NCBI GenBank assembly: GCA_027619225.1
Contig: JAQCFW010000015.1
Coordinates: 1-44,805, forward strand
Length of the DNA stretch: 44,805 nucleotides
Direction: 5' to 3'
DNA from: Bacteroidota bacterium
GTDB lineage: Bacteria; Bacteroidota; Bacteroidia; Flavobacteriales_D; Sanyastnellaceae
Shown: positions 11,576 through 43,700 of the stretch, in pieces
Numbering within the stretch: the stretch's first letter is position 1
Layout of the letters: each line of letters opens with the position of its first letter
Made by a program: the position numbers and the translations under genes
The notes under the pieces: model-generated
The model's input: only the letters and a program-made list of their open reading frames with translations
Told to the model about the DNA's origin: nothing
Databases searched by the model: none

Positions 11576-13300
11576 CTATGACTCCTTACTTTCCTGCGTA
11601 GCTATCTTTCTTAGCCCTTCACCTAAAGTACCGGGGTTGTTAATATCTTCAATAGCTGTTGCTATACTTGTAAAGCACCTTGTTTTTCCTATCTTATTGA
11701 TTAGTTCAGAAGACCCAATGACATCTCTAACCGGACCAATAGCGGCTGAAAGTCGGAAGCTTACACCTCTTTTTTCAAGTTCGTCTATCAAGTTTTCTAA
11801 TCCGGCTAATCCCGAAGCGTCGATATATCCAATTGACTCAGCGCATAGAATTGTTGTTTCTACTTTTCCATTTCTGGAGTCAATCAGGTTTTTGATAGAA
11901 GAATTTAAAAATCTATGGTTGGCAAAATTTACAGAAGCGTCAAACCTTACAATCAGCAAATCCTCCCTTACTACAGCATTTTCAAATCTCTTTACGTTTC
12001 TAAAGACTCCCTCAATTTCACCCAATTCAGCAAAATGCGGTCTCATCTGCTTGAATACGAGTACCACGATAGATAATCCCACTCCAACTCCTATTCCCTG
12101 AGTCATCCCCACTGTTGCGGTTACAAAGAAAGTCACAAACAAAAGTCCTGCTTCCACTTTGTGATTTTTCCACAGCACAATAGGTAGCTTCATATCCACA
12201 AGTCCTGAAACAGCAACGATGACGATGGCCGCTAAGACGGCTTTCGGCAAGTGGTAAAATAGAGGTGTTAGAAATAAGAGTGTCAGAGCTATTAAAGCAG
12301 CAGAAATTAAAGATGCCATTGGTGAGACAGCTCCAGCCTTCTCATTTATGGCTGTCCTTGAAAATCCTCCTGTTGTAGGATATGATTTAAAGAATGCCCC
12401 GAAAATATTTGCCAGTCCCAATGCTCTTAATTCTTGATCAGCATCGAGTTTATAGTCGTGCTTTTCTTCAATTGTTTTTGCTATAGAATACGCCTCCATA
12501 AATGCGATAAGAGCTAATGTTATCGCAATAGGTAGTAGTTGCGTAAAATCTGAAGCGTCTATAGTTGGAGATGAGAAGGAGGGAAGACCTTCAGGAATGA
12601 CACCTACGATATCCACGCCCTCTTCATTCAATCCAAGTTGTTTAACCAGCACAATCCCCAGAACAACAACAACTAGCGTTGCAGGCACTTTTATCTTCCC
12701 CTTGTATTTAGAAAGTACCACTAGAAGTGCCATTGAACCTGTACCTATTAATAAGGTATTTAGATGCAATTCTCCTAAAGCTTCTGACAGTGAGAATATT
12801 AATTTGTGAAATTGATTGTTTTGGGGAATATCTATTCCCAAAAGATTCGTCATTTGATTTGCTCCGATAATGAGCGCGGCAGCAGACGTAAACCCACTAA
12901 CAATAGGCTTAGAAAGGAAGTTTACAAGAAACCCTGCCCTCACAATGCCTAGCAGAAGTTGAATGGTTCCCATCATAAGTGCAAGCGCAATTGCAAGTTC
13001 GATATATCTATCCGACCCTGCTGCTGCTATGGAAGTCAGTCCAGCTGCCACAAGCAAAGAGTCCATTGCAACGGGTCCCACGGCGAGTTGCCTTGAAGTC
13101 CCCGTAAGAGCGTATATAATTTGAGGGACCAGTGAGGCATATAGCCCGTAAACCATAGGCAAACCAGCTATTAACGCATACGCCATCCCCTGAGGAATAA
13201 GCACAATTCCAACGGTAATTCCCGCAGGAAGATCCTTAAAAAAATCTGCTTTAGAATAGTTTGGAAGCCACTCTAGTATGGGAAGGAATTTTTTAATCAC
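11576..13300 (-). CDS. SulP family anion permease with STAS domain
   Basis: A 574-residue inner-membrane transporter. The N-terminal signature is PAGITVGIVLIPQGMAYALIAGLPMVYGLY, spread over the first two membrane helices, then about ten further helices, then a cytosolic STAS domain (about 440-560) with SIGYIDASGLAGLENLIDEL. Family members carry sulfate, bicarbonate or other anions. Substrate is open, but the downstream persulfide dioxygenase-like gene favours a sulfur oxyanion (sulfate import or sulfite/sulfate export). The start is GTG at 13300, forced by an in-frame stop just upstream. Its promoter box lies in the 18 nt between the tRNA terminator and the GTG. Confidence 0.9.
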   Translation of the reverse strand: MIKKFLPILEWLPNYSKADFFKDLPAGITVGIVLIPQGMAYALIAGLPMVYGLYASLVPQIIYALTGTSRQLAVGPVAMDSLLVAAGLTSIAAAGSDRYIELAIALALMMGTIQLLLGIVRAGFLVNFLSKPIVSGFTSAAALIIGANQMTNLLGIDIPQNNQFHKLIFSLSEALGELHLNTLLIGTGSMALLVVLSKYKGKIKVPATLVVVVLGIVLVKQLGLNEEGVDIVGVIPEGLPSFSSPTIDASDFTQLLPIAITLALIAFMEAYSIAKTIEEKHDYKLDADQELRALGLANIFGAFFKSYPTTGGFSRTAINEKAGAVSPMASLISAALIALTLLFLTPLFYHLPKAVLAAIVIVAVSGLVDMKLPIVLWKNHKVEAGLLFVTFFVTATVGMTQGIGVGVGLSIVVLVFKQMRPHFAELGEIEGVFRNVKRFENAVVREDLLIVRFDASVNFANHRFLNSSIKNLIDSRNGKVETTILCAESIGYIDASGLAGLENLIDELEKRGVSFRLSAAIGPVRDVIGSSELINKIGKTRCFTSIATAIEDINNPGTLGEGLRKIATQESKES

Positions 13301-13306
13301 GTACGG

Positions 13307-13314
13307 CGAAATTA
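13307..13314 (-). promoter_or_regulatory. -7 element of the SulP operon
   Basis: Minus-strand TAATTTCG fits TAnnTTnG and ends 6 nt before the GTG start. Upstream promoter sequence must overlap the tRNA terminator hairpin. Confidence 0.45.
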
Positions 13315-18733: not shown

Positions 18734-18741
18734 CATCTTGT
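18734..18741 (+). promoter_or_regulatory. Possible -7 element of the DksA-like gene
   Basis: CATCTTGT is a partial match (first T and last G of the consensus absent), then GGTC, then ATG at 18746. It was noticed through the common 4-nt spacing and is weaker than the others. Confidence 0.3.
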
Positions 18742-18745
18742 GGTC

Positions 18746-19078
18746 ATGTTAAGCAAGAAAGATAAGATAGATATTCGTGGGCGAATTGAATTGAAGATGG
18801 TGGAGGTCTCAGAGCGCATCCAAGAGTATAAGGAATTGACAAAGCCGATACCTCCATCTGTTGCTATAGGTAGAGTTAGCAGGATGGATGCGATTAATAA
18901 CAGGAGTATAAACGAGGCAGCACTGAGGCAGTTGGAAGTGAAATTGAAAGGGTTAGAGTCAGCAATTTATAGGTTGAATGATGATAAGTTTGGTCGATGT
19001 CTAGGTTGTGGCGAGATGATTCCAATCGGTAGGATAATTCTTGTTCCTGGAGCTACGAAATGCGTGCGTTGCAGTTAA
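18746..19078 (+). CDS. TraR/DksA-like C4 zinc-finger protein
   Basis: A 110-residue cytosolic protein. The N-terminal two thirds form a likely coiled coil with the block AIGRVSRMDAINNRSINEAALRQ split over its tip and return helix. The C-terminus is a C4 zinc finger CLGCGEMIPIGR, then CVRC. DksA/TraR relatives enter the RNA polymerase secondary channel and modulate transcription with or without ppGpp. It is shorter than E. coli DksA and lacks the DxxDxA coil tip, so direct DksA activity is uncertain. ATG at 18746 is preferred to GTG at 18740. Its stop TAA forms the start of the next gene's promoter box. Confidence 0.8.
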   Translation: MLSKKDKIDIRGRIELKMVEVSERIQEYKELTKPIPPSVAIGRVSRMDAINNRSINEAALRQLEVKLKGLESAIYRLNDDKFGRCLGCGEMIPIGRIILVPGATKCVRCS

Positions 19079-19083
19079 CTTTG
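19076..19083 (+). promoter_or_regulatory. -7 element of the 19088 lipoprotein gene (leaderless-type)
   Basis: TAACTTTG is an exact TAnnTTTG match whose first three bases are the stop codon of the DksA-like gene. CCTT follows, then the GTG start at 19088. Confidence 0.6.
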
Positions 19084-19087
19084 CCTT

Positions 19088-19969
19088 GTGAAATTTAAAA
19101 ATATTTATTTGTTTGGTGTGTTATTCTCTGGTCTATTCACTGTTTTAAGTATAGGTTGTGGACTTTGGGATGATAAAATGGTTGAGCCCCATACGATCAT
19201 AGTACCTTCCTTTAATCTCACTACATATGAGGATGAAGGGACAGACTCAAATAACATTGCTGAGGTTTGGGTTTATTCTGAAACAGATGTTTTGGGGGTA
19301 TTTCCTCTTCCTGCAACAATTCCTGTCTTACAAGAAAATGGAGAAGATGTGGTTCATATCACACTTCTTCCAGGTGTGAGAGTAAATGGGATTTCTTCTA
19401 CTCGCAAACCTTATCCATTTTATGAAGTTTTAGAATTGGATTTTAATTATGTGCCGGGAGGAGTTGATACGGTAGAATTTCATTCTAATTATGTGTCAGG
19501 AGTTGAGGTTGTTTTAGCTGAAAACTTTGAGTCTGCGAATAGATTTCAGGCCAGTTCGACAAGTACTGCTGAAGTCGTTCGAACTTTTGATCCCGCTTGG
19601 GTTTTCGAAGGAGCGGTCAGTGGTTTGATCATGTTGTCTGAGGACGCTTCACATGTTACCTCGACTACGCAAGAGCAACTTTATGATTTAACAGGCGATG
19701 TTGCCACTTTCTTAGAGTTTAATTACAGATGTGACAACTCATTTGCTGTGGGAATGGAAGCCATTGGGGGAATTAATCCTGAGCGGACGCCTATTATTGT
19801 ACTTAACCCTACTGGGGAAGAATGGCATAAAATGTATCTAGATTTAGGTCCTTTTTTAAGATCTACGCCAACTGCTTATGGATATGAAGTGACACTTGAT
19901 GCAATTTTAGATATGGGGGAAAAAAGTGGGTATGTCGTTGTTGATAATTTTAAAATAGTCCATTATTAA
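19088..19969 (+). CDS. Hypothetical lipoprotein
   Basis: A 293-residue protein that starts with GTG. The N-terminus (MKFKNIYLFGVLFSGLF, then LSIGCGLWDD) is a lipoprotein signal with the lipidated Cys at about residue 24. The mature protein is beta-rich with no named domain that I recognise. Blocks include PSFNLTTYEDEGTDSNNIAE, LPGVRVNGISSTRKPYPFYE and a C-terminal jelly-roll-like half (TFLEFNYRCDNSFAVGME, then YVVVDNFKIVHY). It overlaps the sugar transferase gene by one base (TAATG), so translation is coupled and a role in envelope polysaccharide or surface assembly is possible. Confidence 0.8.
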   Translation: MKFKNIYLFGVLFSGLFTVLSIGCGLWDDKMVEPHTIIVPSFNLTTYEDEGTDSNNIAEVWVYSETDVLGVFPLPATIPVLQENGEDVVHITLLPGVRVNGISSTRKPYPFYEVLELDFNYVPGGVDTVEFHSNYVSGVEVVLAENFESANRFQASSTSTAEVVRTFDPAWVFEGAVSGLIMLSEDASHVTSTTQEQLYDLTGDVATFLEFNYRCDNSFAVGMEAIGGINPERTPIIVLNPTGEEWHKMYLDLGPFLRSTPTAYGYEVTLDAILDMGEKSGYVVVDNFKIVHY

Positions 19970-21399
19970 TGATGCAGGCGCAAAGGAATGATAAGATACT
20001 CCCATGGATCTACATTGCAACCGATATTGTAGCTGCGGTAATTTCATGGACAGGTCTGTTTATTCATAGAAAGGTGAATATAGAAAGGGTTTGGTCTATG
20101 AAATTAGACACCTGGTTATTTGACAATAATTACTACTTAGGAATTTTATTCGTACCCATTTTCTGGATGAGTTTATATGCTGTTTTAGGAATGTATACTG
20201 ACCCTATAAGAAGGCATAAAGCATTAGAGATTGCGCAAACCTCAAGAGCTACTGCTTTAGGTTCGATCGCTCTTTTTTTCGTTTTGTTGTTAGACGATGT
20301 AGTGATTGATTACAATCATTATTACTCGTCTTTGGGAGTTCTGGTTGCGTTGCACTTTAGCTTAACGTCTGTAGGACGTTGGTTGATCGTCTCAAGAACT
20401 TTAAAGCACATAAGACATGGTTCTTGGGCATTTAGAACATTATTGGTGGGTGGAGCAGAAACGGCAGTTCAGTTTGCTGCAGATTTGAAAGAGGAGGCTT
20501 TGAGTTCAGGATTTAATCTACTTGGATTTATTCAGGTCAATAGTGAGGGTCCCGCAATGGCTTTGGAACTCAATAGACTTGGTGGAATAGATGATATTGA
20601 TGATGTTTTAAAGAAATACGATATCGAAGAGGTAATCGTTGCTGTAGAACCCGCTGACAGAGAAAGAACTGTGCGACTGATTGTAAATTTAGAAGGCCGG
20701 GGGGTGTCGATTAAAGTTGTGCCTGGACTTTATGATTTGTTAAGTGGAAATGTGAAAACGGGAGCGGTTTATGGTACGCCATTAATCCATGTTGATAGAT
20801 TGGTCATGCCGCATTGGCAAATCGTTGTTAAAAGGGCAATTGACATATTTGCTTCGATTTGTGCGTTAATCGTGTTGTTCCCTCTTATGGTTTTTCTTGC
20901 GATTTCTGTAAAGCGATCATCTAGGGGTGGTGTGTTTTATACCCAACAGAGAATAGGAAGGTTTGGGCTGCCTTTTAACATTATTAAGTTCAGGACTATG
21001 GTTGTTGATGCTGAGCGTGGCGGGTCTCCTCAGCTTAGTTCTGTTACAGATCCGAGGGTTACTTCTTCAGGTCGTTGGATGCGTAAGATGAGGTTTGATG
21101 AACTTCCGCAGTTTTTTAATGTTTTGGTAGGTGAAATGTCATTGGTTGGACCTCGACCAGAACGCCAATATTTTATTGATAAAATCAAAGAAAAAGCGCC
21201 TCATTTTTCACACCTTCAAAAGGTAAGGCCAGGGATAACATCTTGGGGTCAGGTGAAATATGGCTATGCGGAAAACCTTCCTGAAATGCTACAAAGACTA
21301 CGTTTTGACATCATGTACATAGAGAATATGTCTTTGGCTTTAGATTTTAAAATCTTAGCTTATACCGTGAGAACTGTTTTGAAAGGCCAGGGCAAGTAA
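19969..21399 (+). CDS. Polyprenyl-phosphate glycosyl-1-phosphate transferase (WbaP/WcaJ type)
   Basis: A 476-residue inner-membrane enzyme that transfers a sugar phosphate from a nucleotide sugar to undecaprenyl phosphate, the first step of exopolysaccharide or O-antigen repeat synthesis. Four N-terminal membrane helices (within about residues 10-140) precede a nucleotide-binding-like middle domain (about 155-260, FRTLLVGGAETAVQF). A fifth helix (IDIFASICALIVLFPLMVFL) and the catalytic domain follow: FYTQQRIGRFG, FNIIKFRTM, ELPQFFNVLVGEMSLVGPRPE and PGITSWGQV. The sugar cannot be read from sequence. No other polysaccharide genes are nearby except the coupled lipoprotein. Confidence 0.9.
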   Translation: MMQAQRNDKILPWIYIATDIVAAVISWTGLFIHRKVNIERVWSMKLDTWLFDNNYYLGILFVPIFWMSLYAVLGMYTDPIRRHKALEIAQTSRATALGSIALFFVLLLDDVVIDYNHYYSSLGVLVALHFSLTSVGRWLIVSRTLKHIRHGSWAFRTLLVGGAETAVQFAADLKEEALSSGFNLLGFIQVNSEGPAMALELNRLGGIDDIDDVLKKYDIEEVIVAVEPADRERTVRLIVNLEGRGVSIKVVPGLYDLLSGNVKTGAVYGTPLIHVDRLVMPHWQIVVKRAIDIFASICALIVLFPLMVFLAISVKRSSRGGVFYTQQRIGRFGLPFNIIKFRTMVVDAERGGSPQLSSVTDPRVTSSGRWMRKMRFDELPQFFNVLVGEMSLVGPRPERQYFIDKIKEKAPHFSHLQKVRPGITSWGQVKYGYAENLPEMLQRLRFDIMYIENMSLALDFKILAYTVRTVLKGQGK

Positions 21400-21410
21400 C
21401 CAATGTCTTG

Positions 21411-21439
21411 AAACGATTTTCGTAATCATTCGTTTTTTT
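21411..21439 (+). terminator. Probable terminator after the sugar transferase gene
   Basis: A 6-bp stem AAACGA / TCGTTT with a 13-nt loop runs into a T-tract. The stem is A/T-rich and the loop long, so this is a modest candidate. Confidence 0.4.
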
Positions 21440-21452
21440 ACATAATTTTTCC

Positions 21453-21460
21453 GACCTTAG
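21453..21460 (+). promoter_or_regulatory. Possible -7 element of the OmpA-family gene
   Basis: GACCTTAG (first T of the consensus is G) lies 61 nt before the first ATG. At 4 nt downstream there is an in-frame ATC (see the findings). Confidence 0.3.
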
Positions 21461-21521
21461 TTCTATCATACGTAACATTCATCTCCGGACTTACGATTCT
21501 AGACACAGTATTCTGTTTACA

Positions 21522-22664
21522 ATGCTGTGGTGGTTTGCGGTGTTTTCACTTTCCATGGATACGCTTCAAGCCCAAACCGATCATTCTCGATTAGTTGGGT
21601 CAAGAGAGGGTAAATTGATTGTGAACTATTGGAGTTCTGCTACAGATCCAGAGGTTGATCAGTTAAAAAGTCTTATGGTTGATGCTATTGAGACATACTT
21701 GAATGGAGCTGTTGATGTGGTAGAGGGAGATGTGACATGGAAGGCCAGCATAAGAGTCATCAAAAAGGACATAAATAAAATCGTTCGTGACATGATGGTT
21801 TTGCGAAAGTTTAAAGAAAAAGTACCTTTTGCAGGGTTTTCTGATGAAGTAGATGTCTTGCTGCTTGATGTCCAGGAATTAGACGCGAGAGATGTAACTC
21901 GCTACAAGAGCTCATCAGATATTCCCTTCGAAAAGCGTTTTTACTTTTTAGTCCAATCTCGGATTCAGGAAGTCATACTTCAAGCAGGGATAGAATTGGG
22001 GAGTTTTGTAAACCATGGACTCCTTGCATTGGTGGGAGTGACTGAAGAGGCACTTAGCACAAATGAAATAGAAGACTGGCAGAATTTTGATCCCAACTCA
22101 CCATTAAAACCTATCGAAATAAATTTTTCATTAGAAACAATGAGCCTCGTAAACTCATCTGATCACAGTGTTCTACCTTCTTTGGGTAACACTCCAGAAT
22201 CTTCCCTTGAATCAAGCTTGTTAGAAAGGGTGATCATGCTTCTTGAAGAAAATTCACGAAGAATACAAAATCTTGAGGACAGACAGGGGAACAATCTCTC
22301 ACAAGGTTTGTCATCAACAACCAATATTCCAGCTATAAATAATATACCTGACAAGTTCGACATTAGATTTTATAATGGAAGCTATGATTTGTCATTGAAT
22401 GCTCAGCTATACCTAAATGAGGTCGTAGGCTTATTGTTTAGACATCCTCAAGTCAGGGCGTTGTGTTCAGGACATGCTGGTGTTTTAGAAGAAAGTGTGG
22501 ATAATTTGGACTTGTCTAAAGCAAGAGCAAAAGCAGTGCGTGAATACATCTTAGAAAGTGGATTGCCACCTGAAAGAGTTGTTATGAATTTCTTTGGAGA
22601 AGAACACGCTGAAAATAATGGTTCGACAGATAGAAGAGTAATTGTTACTTTCTTTGCAGACTGA
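21522..22664 (+). CDS. OmpA-family C-terminal domain protein
   Basis: A 380-residue exported protein. The annotated ATG gives a short signal (MLWWFAVFSLSMDTLQAQ) with no charged n-region. Residues of about 25-230 are an unknown domain with many charged segments. A short coiled coil (ERVIMLLEENSRRIQNLEDR) precedes a C-terminal OmpA-like peptidoglycan-binding domain at about 270-380 (CSGHAG, then LDLSKARAKAVREYILESGL, then STDRRVIVTF). It likely tethers an envelope component to peptidoglycan. The frame is open without a stop upstream to beyond 21465, so the true start may lie further upstream. It is followed 11 nt later by the FAH-family gene. Confidence 0.8.
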   Translation: MLWWFAVFSLSMDTLQAQTDHSRLVGSREGKLIVNYWSSATDPEVDQLKSLMVDAIETYLNGAVDVVEGDVTWKASIRVIKKDINKIVRDMMVLRKFKEKVPFAGFSDEVDVLLLDVQELDARDVTRYKSSSDIPFEKRFYFLVQSRIQEVILQAGIELGSFVNHGLLALVGVTEEALSTNEIEDWQNFDPNSPLKPIEINFSLETMSLVNSSDHSVLPSLGNTPESSLESSLLERVIMLLEENSRRIQNLEDRQGNNLSQGLSSTTNIPAINNIPDKFDIRFYNGSYDLSLNAQLYLNEVVGLLFRHPQVRALCSGHAGVLEESVDNLDLSKARAKAVREYILESGLPPERVVMNFFGEEHAENNGSTDRRVIVTFFAD

Positions 22665-22675
22665 TAAGTGAACAC

Positions 22676-23293
22676 ATGAAGATTATTTGTATTGGTAGGA
22701 ATTATTTAGAACACGCTCGTGAATTAAACAATGAGGTTCCTTCTGAGCCCTTGTTTTTTCTAAAGCCAGAAAGTTCAGTCCTTCATAAGCGTCACGCATT
22801 TTATATTCCCGAATGGACATCTGATGTCCATTATGAAGTAGAGCTGGTGGTGAAGATTTTAAAACGTGGAAAGACAGTTTTAGAAAAATTTGCTTCTAGA
22901 TATTATTGTGAAGTGGGATTGGGAATAGACTTTACAGCAAGAGATGTACAAACAGAATTAAAGCAAGCTGGTCACCCTTGGGAGAAGGCAAAAGCTTTTG
23001 ATGGATCAGCTGTGATTTCCGAGAAATTCATTCCATTAAATGAGCTTGGGAAAGACATTCAGGACTTGCATTTCTCGTTACTTATTAACAACAGTGAAGT
23101 TCAGTTAGGGCACACTTCAGACATGATTTTTTCAGTCAACGAGCTTATTGTGTATTTGTCTAAGTATATGACTCTTAAGACAGGTGATTTACTATTTACG
23201 GGTACGCCAGCAGGAGTGGGGAGTGTGACTGCTGGAGATAAAATAACAGGGTTTTTGGAGGGTGTTCAGATGCTCTCCGTTAATGTTAAGTAA
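22676..23293 (+). CDS. Fumarylacetoacetate hydrolase family protein
   Basis: A 205-residue cytosolic FAH-fold protein, the length of the short acylpyruvase/FAHD1 branch. It starts KIICIGRNYLEHARELN and has LFFLKPESSVL, the metal-binding YEVELVVKI, GLGIDFTARDVQ, PWEKAKAFDGSA and FTGTPAGVGSV. Relatives hydrolyse acylpyruvates or decarboxylate oxaloacetate. The exact substrate is open. It sits 11 nt after the OmpA-family gene and about 40 nt before aroK on the same strand. Confidence 0.9.
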   Translation: MKIICIGRNYLEHARELNNEVPSEPLFFLKPESSVLHKRHAFYIPEWTSDVHYEVELVVKILKRGKTVLEKFASRYYCEVGLGIDFTARDVQTELKQAGHPWEKAKAFDGSAVISEKFIPLNELGKDIQDLHFSLLINNSEVQLGHTSDMIFSVNELIVYLSKYMTLKTGDLLFTGTPAGVGSVTAGDKITGFLEGVQMLSVNVK

Positions 23294-23325
23294 TGCATAA
23301 TTTATTAGTTTACCATTTTATGCTG

Positions 23326-23333
23326 TACACTTG
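23326..23333 (+). promoter_or_regulatory. Possible -7 element of aroK
   Basis: TACACTTG matches TAnnTTTG except for one position, with TTG and then ATG at 23337. It would place the transcript start at the start codon. Confidence 0.3.
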
Positions 23334-23336
23334 TTG

Positions 23337-23864
23337 ATGCATTTGATATTAATTGGATTTATGGGGAGCGGGAAGTCTACGTTGGCAAAACGTATTTCTG
23401 ATCAGACTGGGAGACCATTGATAGATATGGATTCTCGTTTAGAGGAGGTTTTTGGATGCTCAATAAGTGATTTTGTAGCCGAATTTGGAATGGAATCCTT
23501 TCGAGTTGAAGAAGCAGATTTATTGCGTTCCTTGATGGAAGAGCCAGAATCTGTTATCGCAACAGGAGGAGGCACAGCGTGTGCAGATGGGGCTATGAAG
23601 TTGATGCGAAGCCATGGTGTTGTAATTCATCTGTCAGTTCCTGTGCCTGAATTAGCTCACCGCTTAAAAGATAATTTGTCTACACGTCCTATGCTTTCTG
23701 ATGTGGCCCCTCAGGATCTTGAAAGGGCAATAGGAAGACAGCTGCTTGTACGTGCCGCCTGTTATTCTGGCGCTCATGTAAAGTGGGAAAACATTCAATG
23801 GGATGACGATCAATTAACCAGCAAGTTGAACTCAATTGGTTGGCGCTTGAGAGAAGCGCTTTAA
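23337..23864 (+). CDS. aroK: Shikimate kinase
   Basis: A 175-residue P-loop kinase that phosphorylates shikimate at O3 with ATP. Motifs are Walker A GFMGSGKST (residues 7-15), LIDMDSRLEE with the substrate-binding Asp, FRVEEADLL (Arg), the ATGGGT loop and the lid arginine in STRPML. Two TTG codons precede the ATG at 23337. The ATG is chosen because family members start at the first beta-strand (HLILIGFMG). With aroQ and the DAHP synthase fusion it is one of three aromatic-pathway genes scattered over the window. Confidence 0.92.
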   Translation: MHLILIGFMGSGKSTLAKRISDQTGRPLIDMDSRLEEVFGCSISDFVAEFGMESFRVEEADLLRSLMEEPESVIATGGGTACADGAMKLMRSHGVVIHLSVPVPELAHRLKDNLSTRPMLSDVAPQDLERAIGRQLLVRAACYSGAHVKWENIQWDDDQLTSKLNSIGWRLREAL

Positions 23865-23884
23865 GATAATTGTAGTAATACGAA

Positions 23885-24400
23885 TCAGGTATCTAAGTAA
23901 ACAGCGTCATTCATTGATTTGCCCGATTTACTAAGATTTACGGTAATATTCTCCTTAAGATGTGTTGATAGGGTCAAACCGTAATAATCAGCGCGAATCG
24001 GAAAAGATCTGTGAATCCTATCAACTAAGACAGTTGTGTAGACTCCTTTAGGATCGGAATCTAAAATATGTTTAACAGCATAAATCAATGTCTTCCCTGA
24101 GTACAGAACATCATCTATTACGATGACCACTTTGTCTTTCAAATCAGCTTGTGAGAAACTGCAAATAATTTCAGATTTTAATGGTGCTGCTTTATTTAGC
24201 TTTATTTTTTCTAAGCGAACTTTAAGTTTACTTAGAGATTTTACGATATCGTGTAATCTAGATGCCATCTCCAGACCTTGACCTTCAATCCCAATTAAAA
24301 TCAACTCTTTTTCACTGTGATGAGCCTCAATAAATTCACGAGCTATTCTCTGTAATTTTCTTTGAATTTGGTCTGAATCCAGAATTTTATTCTTTTTCAT
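23885..24400 (-). CDS. Phosphoribosyltransferase family protein (PyrR-like)
   Basis: A 171-residue type I PRTase. The PRPP-binding motif VVIVIDDVLYSGKTLIYAV begins at residue 91, and the flanking blocks LILIGIEGQGLEMA and YTTVLVDRIHRSFPIRADYYG resemble PyrR. PyrR-type proteins can be uracil PRTases or RNA-binding attenuators, and only the PRTase fold is supported here. It lies 33 nt after the RlmD-like gene on the same strand, with no promoter box of its own, so the two probably form an operon. Confidence 0.85.
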   Translation of the reverse strand: MKKNKILDSDQIQRKLQRIAREFIEAHHSEKELILIGIEGQGLEMASRLHDIVKSLSKLKVRLEKIKLNKAAPLKSEIICSFSQADLKDKVVIVIDDVLYSGKTLIYAVKHILDSDPKGVYTTVLVDRIHRSFPIRADYYGLTLSTHLKENITVNLSKSGKSMNDAVYLDT

Positions 24401-24433
24401 GAACGTGGTTTTATTGAATCAGTGATCGTGTAT

Positions 24434-25912
24434 TTACTGATTTCTCATATTAATAATCGGCACAGACCCCGGAATACGCTCAAATAAAGCAATTGACTCT
24501 ACATGTGCTGTGTGCGGGAATTGATCTACTAATTTAATAGAAATAAGTTGATATCCATTCTCTTCAAGGGTAGCCATATCTCTCGCTTGTGTGGCAGGAT
24601 TACAAGAAACGTAAACAATTCTATCGGCAAGTAGTCTGATTACTTTGCGTAATGATTTCGGTGAAATACCCGCTCGAGGTGGATCCATGACAAGCGTCCG
24701 GATTCTGCCCTTGTACTCAGGGTATTCTAACAAAAATTTTCCTACATCAGCGGCGTGGAAGGTGATGTTATCTGCTCCATTATTCGCCGCGCTTATGCGA
24801 GCATCTTCAATCGCAGATTCAACGATATCCACACCTATTATTTCTCCTTCGTGATGTTTTGCAAGAAGTTGAGAAATCGTTCCTGTTCCACAAAACAGGT
24901 CTAGGACGATATCATCCTTGCCCCCCATATCCTTTTTAATGGCAAGGTTTATCACCTCGGTATATAATCTCTCAGCACATTGTGAGTTTGTTTGGAAAAA
25001 ACTACTCAGGCTTATGTCGAATTTAAGACCGTGAAGCACTTCTGTGATTCTATCCACCCCGTAAATGAGTTTACTCAATCCTTCTCTGGCCTCTACTCTT
25101 TCACCGATATTGTCATTAATGGTATGAAGAATTCCAGCAACTCGACTTCCCCATAGGCTTAAGATAAAGTCAACAAATTCAGATTCTATAAAGGCATCTT
25201 CTCCTCCTGAAGTTGTCACCATGTTGATGAGAAGTGTATTATTTGCAATACTTCTTCTTATGACAAAGAACCTAAAAAACCCTTTTCTTTTAGGAGGATG
25301 CCAAGCTGGTAATCCCGTCTTTTCACACCAAAGGCGAACTTTATAAATATCATCCTCAATTTGTTTGTCGAACAGCCCTGAGTCACGATCGAGGTTCTCA
25401 ACAGCCCACCATGTACCTCGATGTTTAAACCCGAGCCCGAAATCATCAATTTTTTGATCGGTCTCTATATCGTGCCTGATTTCAGAAAAGCTGTATTCCA
25501 TCTTATTTCTGTAATGTTGGTAGCTCGGAGACCCAACAATGCCAGTGTATTTATCTCTTACGTCTTTTACACCACCTATACGCTCAAATATATCGAGCGC
25601 AGTTTCTTCCTTGTATTTGTGCTGAATATCAATGGGGAATGTTGAATATGGAGCTCCCGGAATATTTTGGAATTCAGTTTTAATCTCGTCGGGAGATGGT
25701 TCTATCACATGACATAATCTACATTCGGCATAACGGTTTTTACACTTAATGACCTGAGCCCTAACTTTCTGGCCAGGGTATGTGTTTTGCACGAAAATTG
25801 TAAAATCTCCTTTGTCTGTGGGGATCCTTGCAACACCTTTGCCTCCGAACGCAGCAGACACGATTGTCACCTCTAAAAACTCGCCGAGCTTAAACATTTT
25901 TTGTTTTGCCAT
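24434..25912 (-). CDS. RlmD/TrmA-family RNA (uracil-C5) methyltransferase, Fe-S motif altered
   Basis: A 492-residue SAM-dependent enzyme expected to make 5-methyluridine in 23S rRNA (U1939-type). The TRAM-like N-terminus is at about 10-70. The catalytic domain has VLDLFCGTGTISQLLA, VMDPPRAGIS and the nucleophile loop VSCNPATQARD. The usual CX5CX2C iron-sulfur motif, expected near residues 78-90, is replaced by EFQNIPGAPYS. A CX6CX2C triplet (Cys57, Cys64, Cys67) lies just before it. The start at 25912 (MAKQKMFKLGEF) is chosen over an open extension to 25951 because a TACCTTTG box ends 5 nt before it. The exact target nucleotide is not certain. Confidence 0.85.
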   Translation of the reverse strand: MAKQKMFKLGEFLEVTIVSAAFGGKGVARIPTDKGDFTIFVQNTYPGQKVRAQVIKCKNRYAECRLCHVIEPSPDEIKTEFQNIPGAPYSTFPIDIQHKYKEETALDIFERIGGVKDVRDKYTGIVGSPSYQHYRNKMEYSFSEIRHDIETDQKIDDFGLGFKHRGTWWAVENLDRDSGLFDKQIEDDIYKVRLWCEKTGLPAWHPPKRKGFFRFFVIRRSIANNTLLINMVTTSGGEDAFIESEFVDFILSLWGSRVAGILHTINDNIGERVEAREGLSKLIYGVDRITEVLHGLKFDISLSSFFQTNSQCAERLYTEVINLAIKKDMGGKDDIVLDLFCGTGTISQLLAKHHEGEIIGVDIVESAIEDARISAANNGADNITFHAADVGKFLLEYPEYKGRIRTLVMDPPRAGISPKSLRKVIRLLADRIVYVSCNPATQARDMATLEENGYQLISIKLVDQFPHTAHVESIALFERIPGSVPIINMRNQ

Positions 25913-25917
25913 ATCTA

Positions 25918-25925
25918 CAAAGGTA
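25918..25925 (-). promoter_or_regulatory. -7 element of the RlmD-like gene (leaderless-type)
   Basis: Minus-strand TACCTTTG (exact consensus), then TAGAT, then ATG at 25912. It shares a 33-bp gap with the divergent EEP gene. Confidence 0.6.
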
Positions 25926-25933
25926 ATAGCAGG

Positions 25934-25941
25934 TACATTTG
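25934..25941 (+). promoter_or_regulatory. -7 element of the EEP phosphodiesterase gene (leaderless-type)
   Basis: TACATTTG (exact consensus), then TAAG, then ATG at 25946. It fixes the start at the signal peptide Met. Confidence 0.6.
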
Positions 25942-25945
25942 TAAG

Positions 25946-26800
25946 ATGCACACTTTTGCTTCCTCTTTTAAAACCATTTTCACAACTGTTCTGCTGGCTT
26001 TTTTTTCTTCACTTCTTTTATCACAATCAGCAGCAGAATTCTCAGTTTCAACGTTTAACATTAGATACGATAATCCCACCGACCCTCTACTTTGGATTGA
26101 TAGGGGAGAGGACATCGCTAAAGCGATAGCATTCTTTGATATAGTGGGATTGCAAGAGGTTCTGCCTAACCAGCTTCAGGATATCAAGGGTGACCTGCCA
26201 TGGATGTCTTCCTACTCAGTTAACAGAGACGGCAATGGTAAAGGCGAAGCGTGTCCTATTCTCTGGCAAACCAAATCTTTCGACTTACTTCATTCAGAAA
26301 CCAGGTGGTTGTCTGAATCTTGGAGTGACACAGCTTCTGTTGGATGGGATGCTGTAATGCCTAGAATAGCTTCAATAGTTTCTCTTCACCATGTAGCATC
26401 AGGTAAGATAATTAGAGTCATTAATTCTCATTGGTCTCACATCAGTGATAAAGCACGAAGAGCTTCTGCAGCACTTATTCGAGGTTGGGCATTGGGAAAT
26501 GGAGCTGATATAGTCATTGTTTTAGGAGACTTTAATGCTGAGCCTGATTCCGAAGAAATAAAATATCTACTCAACTCCGGTTTAGATGATACATATGAAG
26601 TTGCTGAAACAAGATGTAAAAAGAAGTTTGGCACCTTTACTGGATTTGACCCTGCGGGCTATGCAGGTCCTCGAATAGATTATATCTTAGTTGATGGAGC
26701 AGAAGTGAATTGGGTGTGCGCAGATGAGCACATTAAAAATGGATTTTACATTTCTGATCACCTGCCAGTTCACACATTTATTTCCTTAACGAAGCCTTAA
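25946..26800 (+). CDS. Exported endonuclease/exonuclease/phosphatase-family hydrolase
   Basis: A 284-residue exported metallophosphodiesterase. Residues 1-27 are a signal peptide (FKTIFTTVLLAFFSSLLL). The EEP catalytic set is complete: STFNIRYD (Asn), GLQEV (Glu), NSHWSH, VLGDFNAEPDS (Asp/Asn), RIDYILV and SDHLPV (catalytic His). Such proteins cleave nucleic acids, phospholipid head groups or inositol phosphates. The substrate is unknown. There is no T9SS sorting domain, so it is probably periplasmic. The frame is open back to 25901, but the promoter box sits inside that extension. Its stop TAA begins the promoter box of the next gene. Confidence 0.87.
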   Translation: MHTFASSFKTIFTTVLLAFFSSLLLSQSAAEFSVSTFNIRYDNPTDPLLWIDRGEDIAKAIAFFDIVGLQEVLPNQLQDIKGDLPWMSSYSVNRDGNGKGEACPILWQTKSFDLLHSETRWLSESWSDTASVGWDAVMPRIASIVSLHHVASGKIIRVINSHWSHISDKARRASAALIRGWALGNGADIVIVLGDFNAEPDSEEIKYLLNSGLDDTYEVAETRCKKKFGTFTGFDPAGYAGPRIDYILVDGAEVNWVCADEHIKNGFYISDHLPVHTFISLTKP

Positions 26801-26805
26801 TTTCG
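26798..26805 (+). promoter_or_regulatory. Possible -7 element of the permease gene
   Basis: TAATTTCG fits TAnnTTnG and starts with the stop codon of the EEP gene. It ends 6 nt before the ATG at 26812. Confidence 0.35.
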
Positions 26806-26811
26806 TTTTAG

Positions 26812-29055
26812 ATGAAAGTAGTAGAACAATTTAAAACTATGGGCACCTGGCCTGTCTTTCTGACGGCTATTTCTACAATATTAGGGGCTATTTTATTTTT
26901 GAGATTTGGTTATTCTATTGCTCATATAGGATTATTCCAAACCTTACTCATCATTCTACTAGGCCATTTAGTTACAGTCCCCGCAGCTCTTGCAGTTGCT
27001 GAAATTGCTACCAACCAAAAGGTAGAGGGAGGTGGAGCCTATTTTATGATTTCAAGATCATTTGGTTTGAATATTGGTGGTGCCATAGGGATTACACTCT
27101 TCTTGAGTCAGTCTATTGCTGTTGCATTTTATATCATTGCTTTCACGATTTCAAGTAGATCTGTTATTTCATGGGTTGATCTCAATTACGGGATATTAAT
27201 TGAACCTCTTTGGATCAACCTCACGATGATGGGGCTTCTTACCCTTTTGATGCTCACTAAGGGAGCTAATCTGGGAGTAAAGGCATTGTATTTTGTGGTA
27301 GCAGCTCTTTGCACAGCTCTTTTGTTTTTCTTCTTAGGGACAGGTCCGGGAAACCCGGTTTTAGATCCGACGGCTACAATTCCTGAATACATTACAGTTG
27401 CTGAAACAGGTGAAGTCATTAAGAGATTTACATTCTTCCAAGTTTTCACTTTTATATTTCCTGCATTCACAGGAATCGCAGCTGGATTAGGTCTTAGTGG
27501 TGATTTGAAAGACCCTAGAAAAAGTATTCCTCGAGGGACTATTTACGCAACCGTAGTGGGTATTGTCGTTTATGTTGCTGTTGCTTTAAAACTTTGGTAC
27601 TCGGCACCTTTAGAAAGCTTGGCTACGGATGAATTGTTTATGGAACAGATAAGTATTTGGCCTCCAATGATTGCCATAGGACTTGCTGCTGCTGCTATAA
27701 GTTCTGCTTTAGGTTCTGTCATGATTGCGCCAAGGACACTACAGGCTTTAGCTGTAGATGGTGTGTTCCCAGGGAAAATGTCTAAGTGGTTAAGTGTTGG
27801 GAAAGGAGAAAGGCAAGAGCCTGTTAGAGCTTCTATTGCAACATGTATCATAGGATTTGCTTTTGTTGCCATTGGAGATATTAATGCCGTAGCTGAAATT
27901 ATTTCCATGTTCTTTATGGTTACCTATGGTGCTATTTGTCTTGTTTCCTTTTTAGAACAAATGGCTGCTGACCCTAGTTATAGACCAACTTTTAAATCTC
28001 ATTGGTCTATTAGTTTAGTTGGTGCTGTTCTTTGTTTTGTTCTGATGTTTGGTATGAATGCACCTTATGCGATAGCAAGTATTGTTGTTATGATCTTAAT
28101 CCATGCTTGGATTTCAAGAAGAGGTGGAGGTACTCAAGGGGGGATGGTGAGATTATTTAGGGGGATAATATTCCAGATCACCCGATCTCTCCAGCTCGCT
28201 CTGCAGATGAATGACGAGGATGATTTAAAATCTACAACCGGATGGAGGCCTTTTGTTTTATCTATAAGTCCTGATAGTTTTAAAAGGAAAGAGGGCTTTG
28301 ACATGACAAGGTGGATTGCACATAAATATGGGTTTGGCACCTATATGCATTATATCAAGGGATTTTTAAATGAAGACACTAGTAAGGAAGCTCAGATTGC
28401 TCATAAAGACCTGGTTGAGTGGTCGAGAGGTGGGAGTAGTAGGGTTCAATTGGACACGATTATTTCGCCCTCATATACTTCAGCGATTGCTCAATGTGTA
28501 CAATTACCTGGTTTAAGCGGTAAGGGAAATAATTTATTTTTGATGGAATACGACCCTGGAAATTTCGAGAATAGGGACCAACTTTTGAATAACTTAAATA
28601 TTCTTAAAGCAGTAGACTTAGACCTTTTGCTTCTTAGAAGCAGCGGCAGGTCATTCGGTACGAGGCATGATATACACCTTTGGATCACCCCTGAAGATAA
28701 ATCGAATGCAAGTTTAATGATACTCTTGTCTTATATACTTCAAGGTCACCCAGATTGGAGCGAGTCAAGTATTTCAGTTTTCTTTATTTGTGAAGGTTCA
28801 GATGATCAGCATGCCACACATTTGCAAGCTCAGATTGTCGAGGGACGAATTCCGATATCCGAGCAGAATATTGAAATTGTCGAGGCAAATAATCAAAATG
28901 AAAAAGTAAGCCACATTCTCAATCGTTCAGGAGGTGCTGACCTTGTCATTCTGGGCTTTGATTTTGATTCGAGTAAGGCTGAAGATTTTGAGATTTATCA
29001 TGGTTTAGGTGATACGATGTTTGTTTATGCTTCTCTTCCTAAGCTGATTCAATAA
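26812..29055 (+). CDS. APC/SLC12-like permease (cation-chloride cotransporter type)
   Basis: A 747-residue inner-membrane transporter. About 12 membrane helices span residues 15-430, starting with GTWPVFLTAISTILGAILFLRFG. The SLC12-like features are the helix-1 ILGAILFLRFGY segment and VEGGGAYFMISRSFG between helices 2 and 3, and FPAFTGIAAGLGLSGDLKDPRKSIPRGT is split across helix 6 and the following loop. The C-terminal 300 residues are cytosolic (KRKEGFDMTRWIAH, LILLSYILQGHPDW-type segments, GADLVILGFD), as in Na-K-Cl cotransporter relatives. Ions or amino acids may be carried. It starts 11 nt after the EEP gene. Confidence 0.85.
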   Translation: MKVVEQFKTMGTWPVFLTAISTILGAILFLRFGYSIAHIGLFQTLLIILLGHLVTVPAALAVAEIATNQKVEGGGAYFMISRSFGLNIGGAIGITLFLSQSIAVAFYIIAFTISSRSVISWVDLNYGILIEPLWINLTMMGLLTLLMLTKGANLGVKALYFVVAALCTALLFFFLGTGPGNPVLDPTATIPEYITVAETGEVIKRFTFFQVFTFIFPAFTGIAAGLGLSGDLKDPRKSIPRGTIYATVVGIVVYVAVALKLWYSAPLESLATDELFMEQISIWPPMIAIGLAAAAISSALGSVMIAPRTLQALAVDGVFPGKMSKWLSVGKGERQEPVRASIATCIIGFAFVAIGDINAVAEIISMFFMVTYGAICLVSFLEQMAADPSYRPTFKSHWSISLVGAVLCFVLMFGMNAPYAIASIVVMILIHAWISRRGGGTQGGMVRLFRGIIFQITRSLQLALQMNDEDDLKSTTGWRPFVLSISPDSFKRKEGFDMTRWIAHKYGFGTYMHYIKGFLNEDTSKEAQIAHKDLVEWSRGGSSRVQLDTIISPSYTSAIAQCVQLPGLSGKGNNLFLMEYDPGNFENRDQLLNNLNILKAVDLDLLLLRSSGRSFGTRHDIHLWITPEDKSNASLMILLSYILQGHPDWSESSISVFFICEGSDDQHATHLQAQIVEGRIPISEQNIEIVEANNQNEKVSHILNRSGGADLVILGFDFDSSKAEDFEIYHGLGDTMFVYASLPKLIQ

Positions 29056-42551: not shown

Positions 42552-43688
42552 TGTTCTGTCTGCGGATGTGTCATTAAAAAGCTTTTCTATTGAAGCCTCT
42601 TCTTTAAAAGTCATTTCGATATTGCGCCGATCCATTGCTTTTTTGGCTGTGCTTATAGCTTGCTCTACTCTGTATTCTTTCACGCCTTCAGAACCACCCC
42701 AAGTAAATGATGGTATGTGTTTTTCTGGCGCTCCTTTGCCGAAAATATTGCAAAATGCGCCTACGACAGTCGCAGTGTTGAAAGCTGTGTGTATTGCAGT
42801 TTTACTGTGGTCCCCCATTAATAAGCCGCAGAAAACGCGGCCTCCATTAATCAATTTACGTTCTTTAGCGCTATAGAGTTTTACCTCTCCGTAGGTGTTT
42901 TTTAAATTACTTGAAGTCGTTTCTGCTCCTAAGTTGCACCAGGATCCAATTACACTATTTCCCACAAAACCACCGTGACCTTTGTTTGAATAATCATGCA
43001 TTACGATGTTATTTACTTCACCTCCAACTTTACAGTGTTGGCCTATAGAAGTTGGGCCGTAAATCTGACTTCCCATTTTCACAGTACTATTTTCTCCAAG
43101 GGCAAATGGCCCTCTAATACATGACCCTTCCATAATCTCTGAATTGGGACCTATAATAACATCACCACTTTCTGTATTTATCGTACAGCTCCTGATTTTT
43201 ACTCCGGGTGATATATGAACTTGTTCTAAATCACCATGAAAAAACACACCATTCATCGCCCAAGATTCTCGCTCAGATTCATTTAAACTCCTTGCTCCCC
43301 ACACGAGCTTTAACCGATCCAGATCTGTTCTAATTCCCTCACCACATAGCTCGAAATAATCTGCAGCAGATTTTGTTAAGATAGCTGAGACATCACCACC
43401 AATTTCTTTGCTTACATCCCCTTCAATTTCTGCAAGGGTTTCTCCATTTACAACCCATTTTTGACCAGAGTTCATTTGACACACAAATTCTACAGACGCA
43501 TTTGTAGGCATAAGCCTAGAATTGAGTTTAATGTTAGAGGTGTTTTTATTTTTATTTTTTGCGATCGCCTCAGTCCATTGAGTTGAGACAGATCTTACCC
43601 CAAAATGGAGTGTTGACGGACATTTCCCAAGGTTAAGAGGATATAAATTAATGCTTTCAGAGTCCGAGAAAAATATGATGTTTGTCAT
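42549..43688 (-). CDS. GlmU-like putative sugar nucleotidyltransferase
   Basis: A 379-residue protein of the GlmU-related family typical of Bacteroidota. The N-terminal domain (about 1-160) is diverged and lacks the GxGTRM pyrophosphorylase loop; instead it reads LYPLNLGKCPSTLHFGVRS and has VNGETLAEIEG. From about 165 on is a left-handed beta-helix acyltransferase-like domain with hexapeptide repeats (VIIGPNSEIMEGSCIRGP, NSTVKMGSQIYGPTSIGQ) and the GlmU-like end IHTAFNTATVVGAFCNIFG. Sugar-phosphate activation is inferred only from the fold. It heads the lon-porQ-cmk train and has a leaderless-type box. Confidence 0.82.
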   Translation of the reverse strand: MTNIIFFSDSESINLYPLNLGKCPSTLHFGVRSVSTQWTEAIAKNKNKNTSNIKLNSRLMPTNASVEFVCQMNSGQKWVVNGETLAEIEGDVSKEIGGDVSAILTKSAADYFELCGEGIRTDLDRLKLVWGARSLNESERESWAMNGVFFHGDLEQVHISPGVKIRSCTINTESGDVIIGPNSEIMEGSCIRGPFALGENSTVKMGSQIYGPTSIGQHCKVGGEVNNIVMHDYSNKGHGGFVGNSVIGSWCNLGAETTSSNLKNTYGEVKLYSAKERKLINGGRVFCGLLMGDHSKTAIHTAFNTATVVGAFCNIFGKGAPEKHIPSFTWGGSEGVKEYRVEQAISTAKKAMDRRNIEMTFKEEASIEKLFNDTSADRT

Positions 43689-43692
43689 GTCG

Positions 43693-43700
43693 CAAACTTA
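43693..43700 (-). promoter_or_regulatory. -7 element of the GlmU-like gene (leaderless-type)
   Basis: Minus-strand TAAGTTTG (exact consensus), then CGAC, then ATG at 43688. Confidence 0.6.

Follow-up and report, generated by a model that had tools for sequence, protein, structure and literature searches.

At two junctions between same-strand genes in the 44,805-nt stretch of DNA analysed here (hereafter, the window), the TAA stop codon of the upstream gene also forms the first three bases of a -7 box placed just ahead of the start codon of the downstream gene. From the sequences compared, we estimate with a probability of about 70% that these boxes are ordinary sigma-A leaderless promoters, the TAA of which captured the upstream reading frame as the spacer shrank. 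The genome holding the window (2.03 Mb in 49 contigs, 97% complete) has Flavobacteriales MAGs (e.g., SZUA-1004, UBA974) as the nearest named relatives found.

At the first junction (junction A), a DksA/TraR-type zinc-finger gene of 112 aa (18740..19078, plus strand; Pfam zf-dskA_traR, E 1.2e-7; low coding score) ends with the TAA at 19076-19078, and these same letters open the box TAACTTTG (19076..19083, plus strand), which is an exact match to TAnnTTTG. The box is followed by CCTT and then by the GTG at 19088, for which the shared TAA is also the last in-frame stop upstream. This GTG starts a gene of 293 aa (19088..19969, plus strand) that is predicted to be leaderless and aligns from residue 1 in the genomes G010, G006, and G009; no Pfam family matched its product, and the N-terminus suggests a lipoprotein. 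At the second junction (junction B), the TAA at 26798-26800 ends an endonuclease/exonuclease/phosphatase-family gene (25946..26800, plus strand; ATG start by the gene finder; Pfam PF03372, E 9.1e-19 on the longer ORF) and opens the box TAATTTCG (26798..26805, plus strand), which has one mismatch to TAnnTTTG (TTCG). TTTTAG follows, and then the ATG at 26812 of an amino-acid-permease-family transporter gene of 747 aa (26812..29055, plus strand; Pfam PF00324, E 8e-45), likewise predicted to be leaderless. The sequence-only reading from which this work started was accurate about the positions and letters at 19076 and 26798, and also about the start codons following within 4-6 nt of the box (4 nt at 19088 and 6 nt at 26812).

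To describe where such boxes lie relative to gene starts, we counted TAnnTTYG, a pattern slightly wider than the consensus Bacteroidota -7 box (TAnnTTTG), in 834,805 bases of the own genome (the window and 40 further stretches, ∼41% of the genome), which yielded 713 called genes, 664 with an upstream neighbour, which shared the strand of the gene in 476 cases. Gene calling relied on a hexamer model of our own making, which set starts from the coding score and the leftmost ATG; the cut-off for this score differed between runs (12, 7, and 5), and the box statistics used 5. The DksA-like gene, with an ORF score below 0, was absent from the calls at cut-offs 12 and 7 and was added through its Pfam match. 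Ahead of the 664 starts, the box occurred 39, 10, and 6 times at gaps of 4, 5, and 6 nt, respectively, over a background averaging 1.9 per position for gaps of 11-59 nt; the gap at 19088 is thus inside the peak and that at 26812 on its shoulder (6/664 genes). Across the whole genome TAnnTTTG-N4-ATG was found 70 times versus 28 for the reversed control pattern, and TAHHTTTG-N4-ATG exceeded its control in 40/40 genomes searched, the excess being clear in 25 genomes of the same family (G000-G024) and weak in some others (e.g., 38 vs 36 in G028). In a pool of eight genomes with 1,457 genes having an upstream neighbour, the box at gap 4-6 was about threefold more frequent where no same-strand upstream neighbour existed (65/432 genes) than where there was one (51/1025), as is expected of a promoter.

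A -33 element (TTG) is expected at a spacing of about 17-23 nt ahead of the -7 box. On reading the sequence, no TTG was present at this spacing at either site, and no -33 element was evident in 49 boxes of the own genome. In the part of the Flavobacterium johnsoniae study available to us, this element is much less evident as well (PMC6847099), and the -33 element is therefore a weak criterion. The same part of that study describes a sigma-A promoter (-33/-7) with the same -7 consensus and 4-5 nt from the -7 element to the transcription start (PMC6847099), which matches the 4-nt peak found here; with such spacing, the transcript of a gene that has a box 4 nt ahead of its start codon is predicted to be leaderless. 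A host using this promoter type is expected to have a short primary sigma factor lacking region 1.1; the genome has one Sigma70_r3 match, in a 289-aa ORF that, judging by its length only, may lack this region. Scanning for promoter-like sites with the sigma-70 consensus of E. coli, the wrong one for Bacteroidota, returned 25 versus 21.5 expected in shuffles. In view of the 4-nt peak and of the matching spacing in F. johnsoniae, both elements are very probably leaderless sigma-A promoters.

We then compared the two junctions across related genomes. For junction A, 26 loci were found and 14 were compared (the own genome, 12 others of the genus, and one from another genus of the family), omitting 12 more distant genomes in which no end of a zinc-finger gene was seen before the start. 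In all 14, a similar zinc-finger C-terminus precedes the stop, which may be TAA, TAG, or TGA, and one TAnnTTYG lies between this stop and the aligned next start (14/14). The offset of the box from the stop is 0 in G000, G010, G006, and G009, 9 in G015, 19 in G012 and G003, and 23-24 in seven genomes. The sequence-only reading had taken the boxes for promoters and was probably right, given the peak of boxes 4 nt before starts and the retention of this box at varying distances from the stop. On the lipoprotein tree, the overlap at junction A corresponds to one change on a branch uniting the four genomes (support 100/99), where G022 and G017 are included in the tree and excluded from the count of changes, and the ancestral spacing is deduced by parsimony only. 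The distance from box to start at this junction is 4-6 nt in G000, G010, G006, G009, G012, and G003, whereas G002 has about 19 nt and G005 27 nt on a reading of the sequences; the predicted leader of the lipoprotein-like gene thus changes readily in length.

Junction B was found at 13 loci, nine of which were compared and eight gave a result. The overlap occurs in the same four genomes as at junction A: in G010, G006, and G009, TAACTTCG lies 5-6 nt ahead of the ATG and overlaps the stop. In G005 and G004, TAACTTCG, again 6 nt ahead of the ATG, is instead 33-34 nt past a TAG stop; no TAnnTTYG was found at this junction in G012 or G015, and in G003 the end of the upstream gene was not found. As the box stands away from the stop at both junctions in some relatives, and at variable distance at junction A, it is not tied to translation termination. 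A sequencing artefact was rejected because both overlaps recur in G010, G006, and G009, the permeases of which are 91-95% and the lipoproteins 78-93% identical. A ribosome-binding motif was likewise rejected, because the box-to-start distance is not fixed across the relatives at junction A.

The overlap is real but rare in this genome. The loose pattern TAAnTTYG-N4-6-RTG matched 93 times in the whole genome versus 87 times for its control, which is not above control. All 93 matches were inspected, the search for overlaps covering the TAAnTTYG form: 42 precede a coding ORF (at least two of them, C5:4934 and C27:15000, being doubtful as gene starts on account of long open frames upstream) and 51 do not. 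Only in 3/42 does the TAA end a coding ORF, and the site at 19076 is a fourth by virtue of its Pfam match; at C21:2674, one of the 51, the TAA ends a coding ORF that has no gene after it. The other two overlap junctions are at C37, with a kynureninase-like gene ahead of a TrkA-like one, and at C35, with a Ppx/GppA-like gene ahead of a response regulator gene, all four being named from their translations. Among the relatives read, the overlap recurs in only one of six at C37 (G006) and only two of 11 at C35 (G006 and G009), all of them within the four-genome clade; this comparison omitted a second G012 match and a truncated G013 match, and no upstream ORF end was found in G007. Outside the clade, an exact box was present in the 130 nt before the C35 start in 0/9 relatives; at C37, two of five had no box, and in the other three the only boxes lay 33-54 nt upstream, within the preceding gene. 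With no exact box near the start outside the clade, the box at C35 and C37 cannot be shown to be older than the overlap. That two of the four overlaps fall within one 45-kb window is probably a coincidence, helped by the choice of sites in the sequence-only reading.

These figures bear on another explanation, in which each gene pair forms a plain operon, termination-reinitiation over the 9-11 nt gap accounts for translation of the downstream gene, and the TTTG or TTCG after the stop is there by chance. The excess of the loose pattern over its control is slight enough that such strings evidently arise by chance too, the same-strand spacing is tight, and a terminator scan returned no terminator-like hairpin at either junction. 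We nevertheless regard plain operons as unlikely, since a ribosomal signal would hardly tolerate the shifts in distance to stop and start alike that the box shows at junction A, the partners in all four overlapping gene pairs look functionally unrelated, and boxes at gap 4-6 are commoner where a same-strand upstream neighbour is missing.

If the boxes are leaderless promoters, the coincidence of stop and box could be either mechanical or selected. In the eight-genome pool, 30 of the 51 same-strand boxes at gap 4-6 start between -13 and +20 nt from the upstream stop, and five of these 30 coincide with it (the site at 19076 is not among the five). Offset 0 is the commonest single offset (5/51), with none at each of -9 to -1 and 1 to 3, and under a flat null, with 0.76 expected per offset, the excess is significant (Poisson p 0.001; p 0.008 without the case from the window). 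A promoter box with A as its third base is also commoner in same-strand genes (24/51) than among other boxes (18/65, p 0.035), and the four overlaps are kept in those members of the four-genome clade where the junction was found. Such observations would fit selection favouring the sharing of stop and promoter, by which genes with independent promoters are packed. However, the flat null is wrong, because the box, by its own sequence, places a stop at offset 0 and permits none at the adjacent offsets. For a null of frame capture, we used genes without a same-strand upstream neighbour, in which no adjoining stop codon can have influenced the box. When arbitrary frames were read from 24, 36, or 48 nt ahead of the box, 16/195, 14/195, and 12/195, respectively, terminated precisely there, versus 17/1023, 13/1023, and 13/1023 at this position in the absence of a box (p 1e-5 at 24 nt). 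The share of offset 0 within -13 to +20 is thereby predicted at 16/86 or 14/63 (19-22%), and the observed 5/30 (17%), a small number, matches it.

TTYG follows in register 5/42 TAAs that serve as a neighbour's stop and 37/231 that do not (p 0.64). Against the mechanical reading, TTYG is three times as frequent after a stop TAA as the base rate (5/42 vs 168/4145 gene-by-gap cells, p 0.028), and without the window's case this becomes 4/41 (p 0.086). The third-base bias, too, fades to 19/46 vs 18/65 (p 0.16) once the offset-0 cases are removed. With only four overlaps found in the genome, selection for sharing seems to us improbable, even more so than plain operons; a promoter that begins with TAA would, under gene packing, produce overlaps at about this rate. 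The sequence-only reading implied a favoured or widespread arrangement, which the rarity of the overlap and a rate no higher than the box's own TAA would give do not bear out. In the comparison which that reading proposed, TTYG does not distinguish TAA stops from the others (5/42 TAA vs 0/10 TAG/TGA, Fisher p 0.57), the stops being few. Its further statement that the arrangement has no intergenic cost is true of the three bases of the stop codon and goes too far beyond them.

Under the preferred reading, that of leaderless promoters capturing the upstream frame, the -7 box TAnnTTTG would set the transcription start on the start codon or no more than about two bases from it, and the downstream gene would thereby get a leaderless transcript of its own. 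As the box starts with TA and its third base is often A, it offers a ready-made TAA. When a same-strand spacer shrinks, conceivably by deletion, or when the reading frame of the upstream gene extends into the promoter, the TAA of the box would end that frame, and a single TAA would then be both a stop codon and a part of a promoter. More generally, and tentatively, since we hold this at somewhat less than even odds, the primary promoter box of Bacteroidota could be regarded as itself a translation stop (TAA in one frame), which would make the sharing a recurrent and largely neutral route of compaction in these small genomes. If the box is itself a stop signal, promoters would cap upstream frames and allow the complete deletion of a spacer without gene fusion or loss of independent transcription. 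This is a simple explanation, open to testing, for the takeover of a translation signal by a transcription signal where genes are packed together, and it points to a class of leaderless genes in this flavobacterial family (Sanyastnellaceae).

A comparable case is the ampC promoter of E. coli, which lies within the end of the frd operon and likewise overlaps the end of the previous gene; the sigma consensus differs. Shine-Dalgarno sequences can overlap the stop codon of the upstream gene, according to the portion of the study available (PMC2784483); there too, a downstream initiation signal shares the bases of a stop, but the signal is a ribosome-binding site and here it is a transcription promoter. 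By sequence, about 8% of the genes in the own genome look leaderless (55/664), whereas in F. johnsoniae leaders exceed 10 nt in 87% of those predicted transcripts that have a probable promoter, as given in the accessible part of that study (PMC6847099). In the sections seen of a Flavobacterium psychrophilum study, leaderless mRNAs are a minority class too (5.5% of those mapped), most promoters are variants of the same box, and no overlap with a stop codon is described (PMC9723704). An earlier survey, again as partly available, reported leaderless genes in only 1/37 Bacteroidetes/Chlorobi genomes and warned of underestimation there (PMC3160421); because Pribnow-like boxes were sought, genes with TAnnTTTG were presumably largely out of its reach. 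In the literature on stop codons, promoters, and leaderless genes, coverage of which was partial and thin for subscription journals, we found no description of a Bacteroidota promoter that includes a stop codon.

Other leaderless-looking starts were noticed in the window. The start of the phosphatase gene in the ORF list (TTG at 25901) is probably wrong, the ATG at 25946, 4 nt past the box TACATTTG (25934..25941, plus strand), being a better fit. This box stands back to back with TACCTTTG (25918..25925, minus strand), which is 5 nt ahead of the ATG (25912) of the divergent minus-strand neighbour, so that 33 bp separate the two start codons and both genes are predicted to be leaderless. Among 94 divergent pairs in the sample, three have both genes leaderless-looking, with back-to-back boxes on both strands and 31-33 bp between starts in all three (window 25910-25948; L009 12925-12961; L013 16445-16481). 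A strict pattern of this layout (4 nt on both sides), met by one of the three own-genome pairs, was found at 87 sites in 53/199 genomes of the order and at none for the reversed control; the 87 is a forward-strand sum, each site matching on the reverse strand also, and several of the sites look like one locus in close relatives, coding on both sides having been checked for the three own-genome pairs. On the minus strand, TAAGTTTG is placed 4 nt ahead of an ATG (window 43686-43700), a leaderless-looking start outside the 42 coding starts, and TAATTTCG appears once more 6 nt ahead of a GTG (window 13298-13314), giving another start of leaderless appearance.
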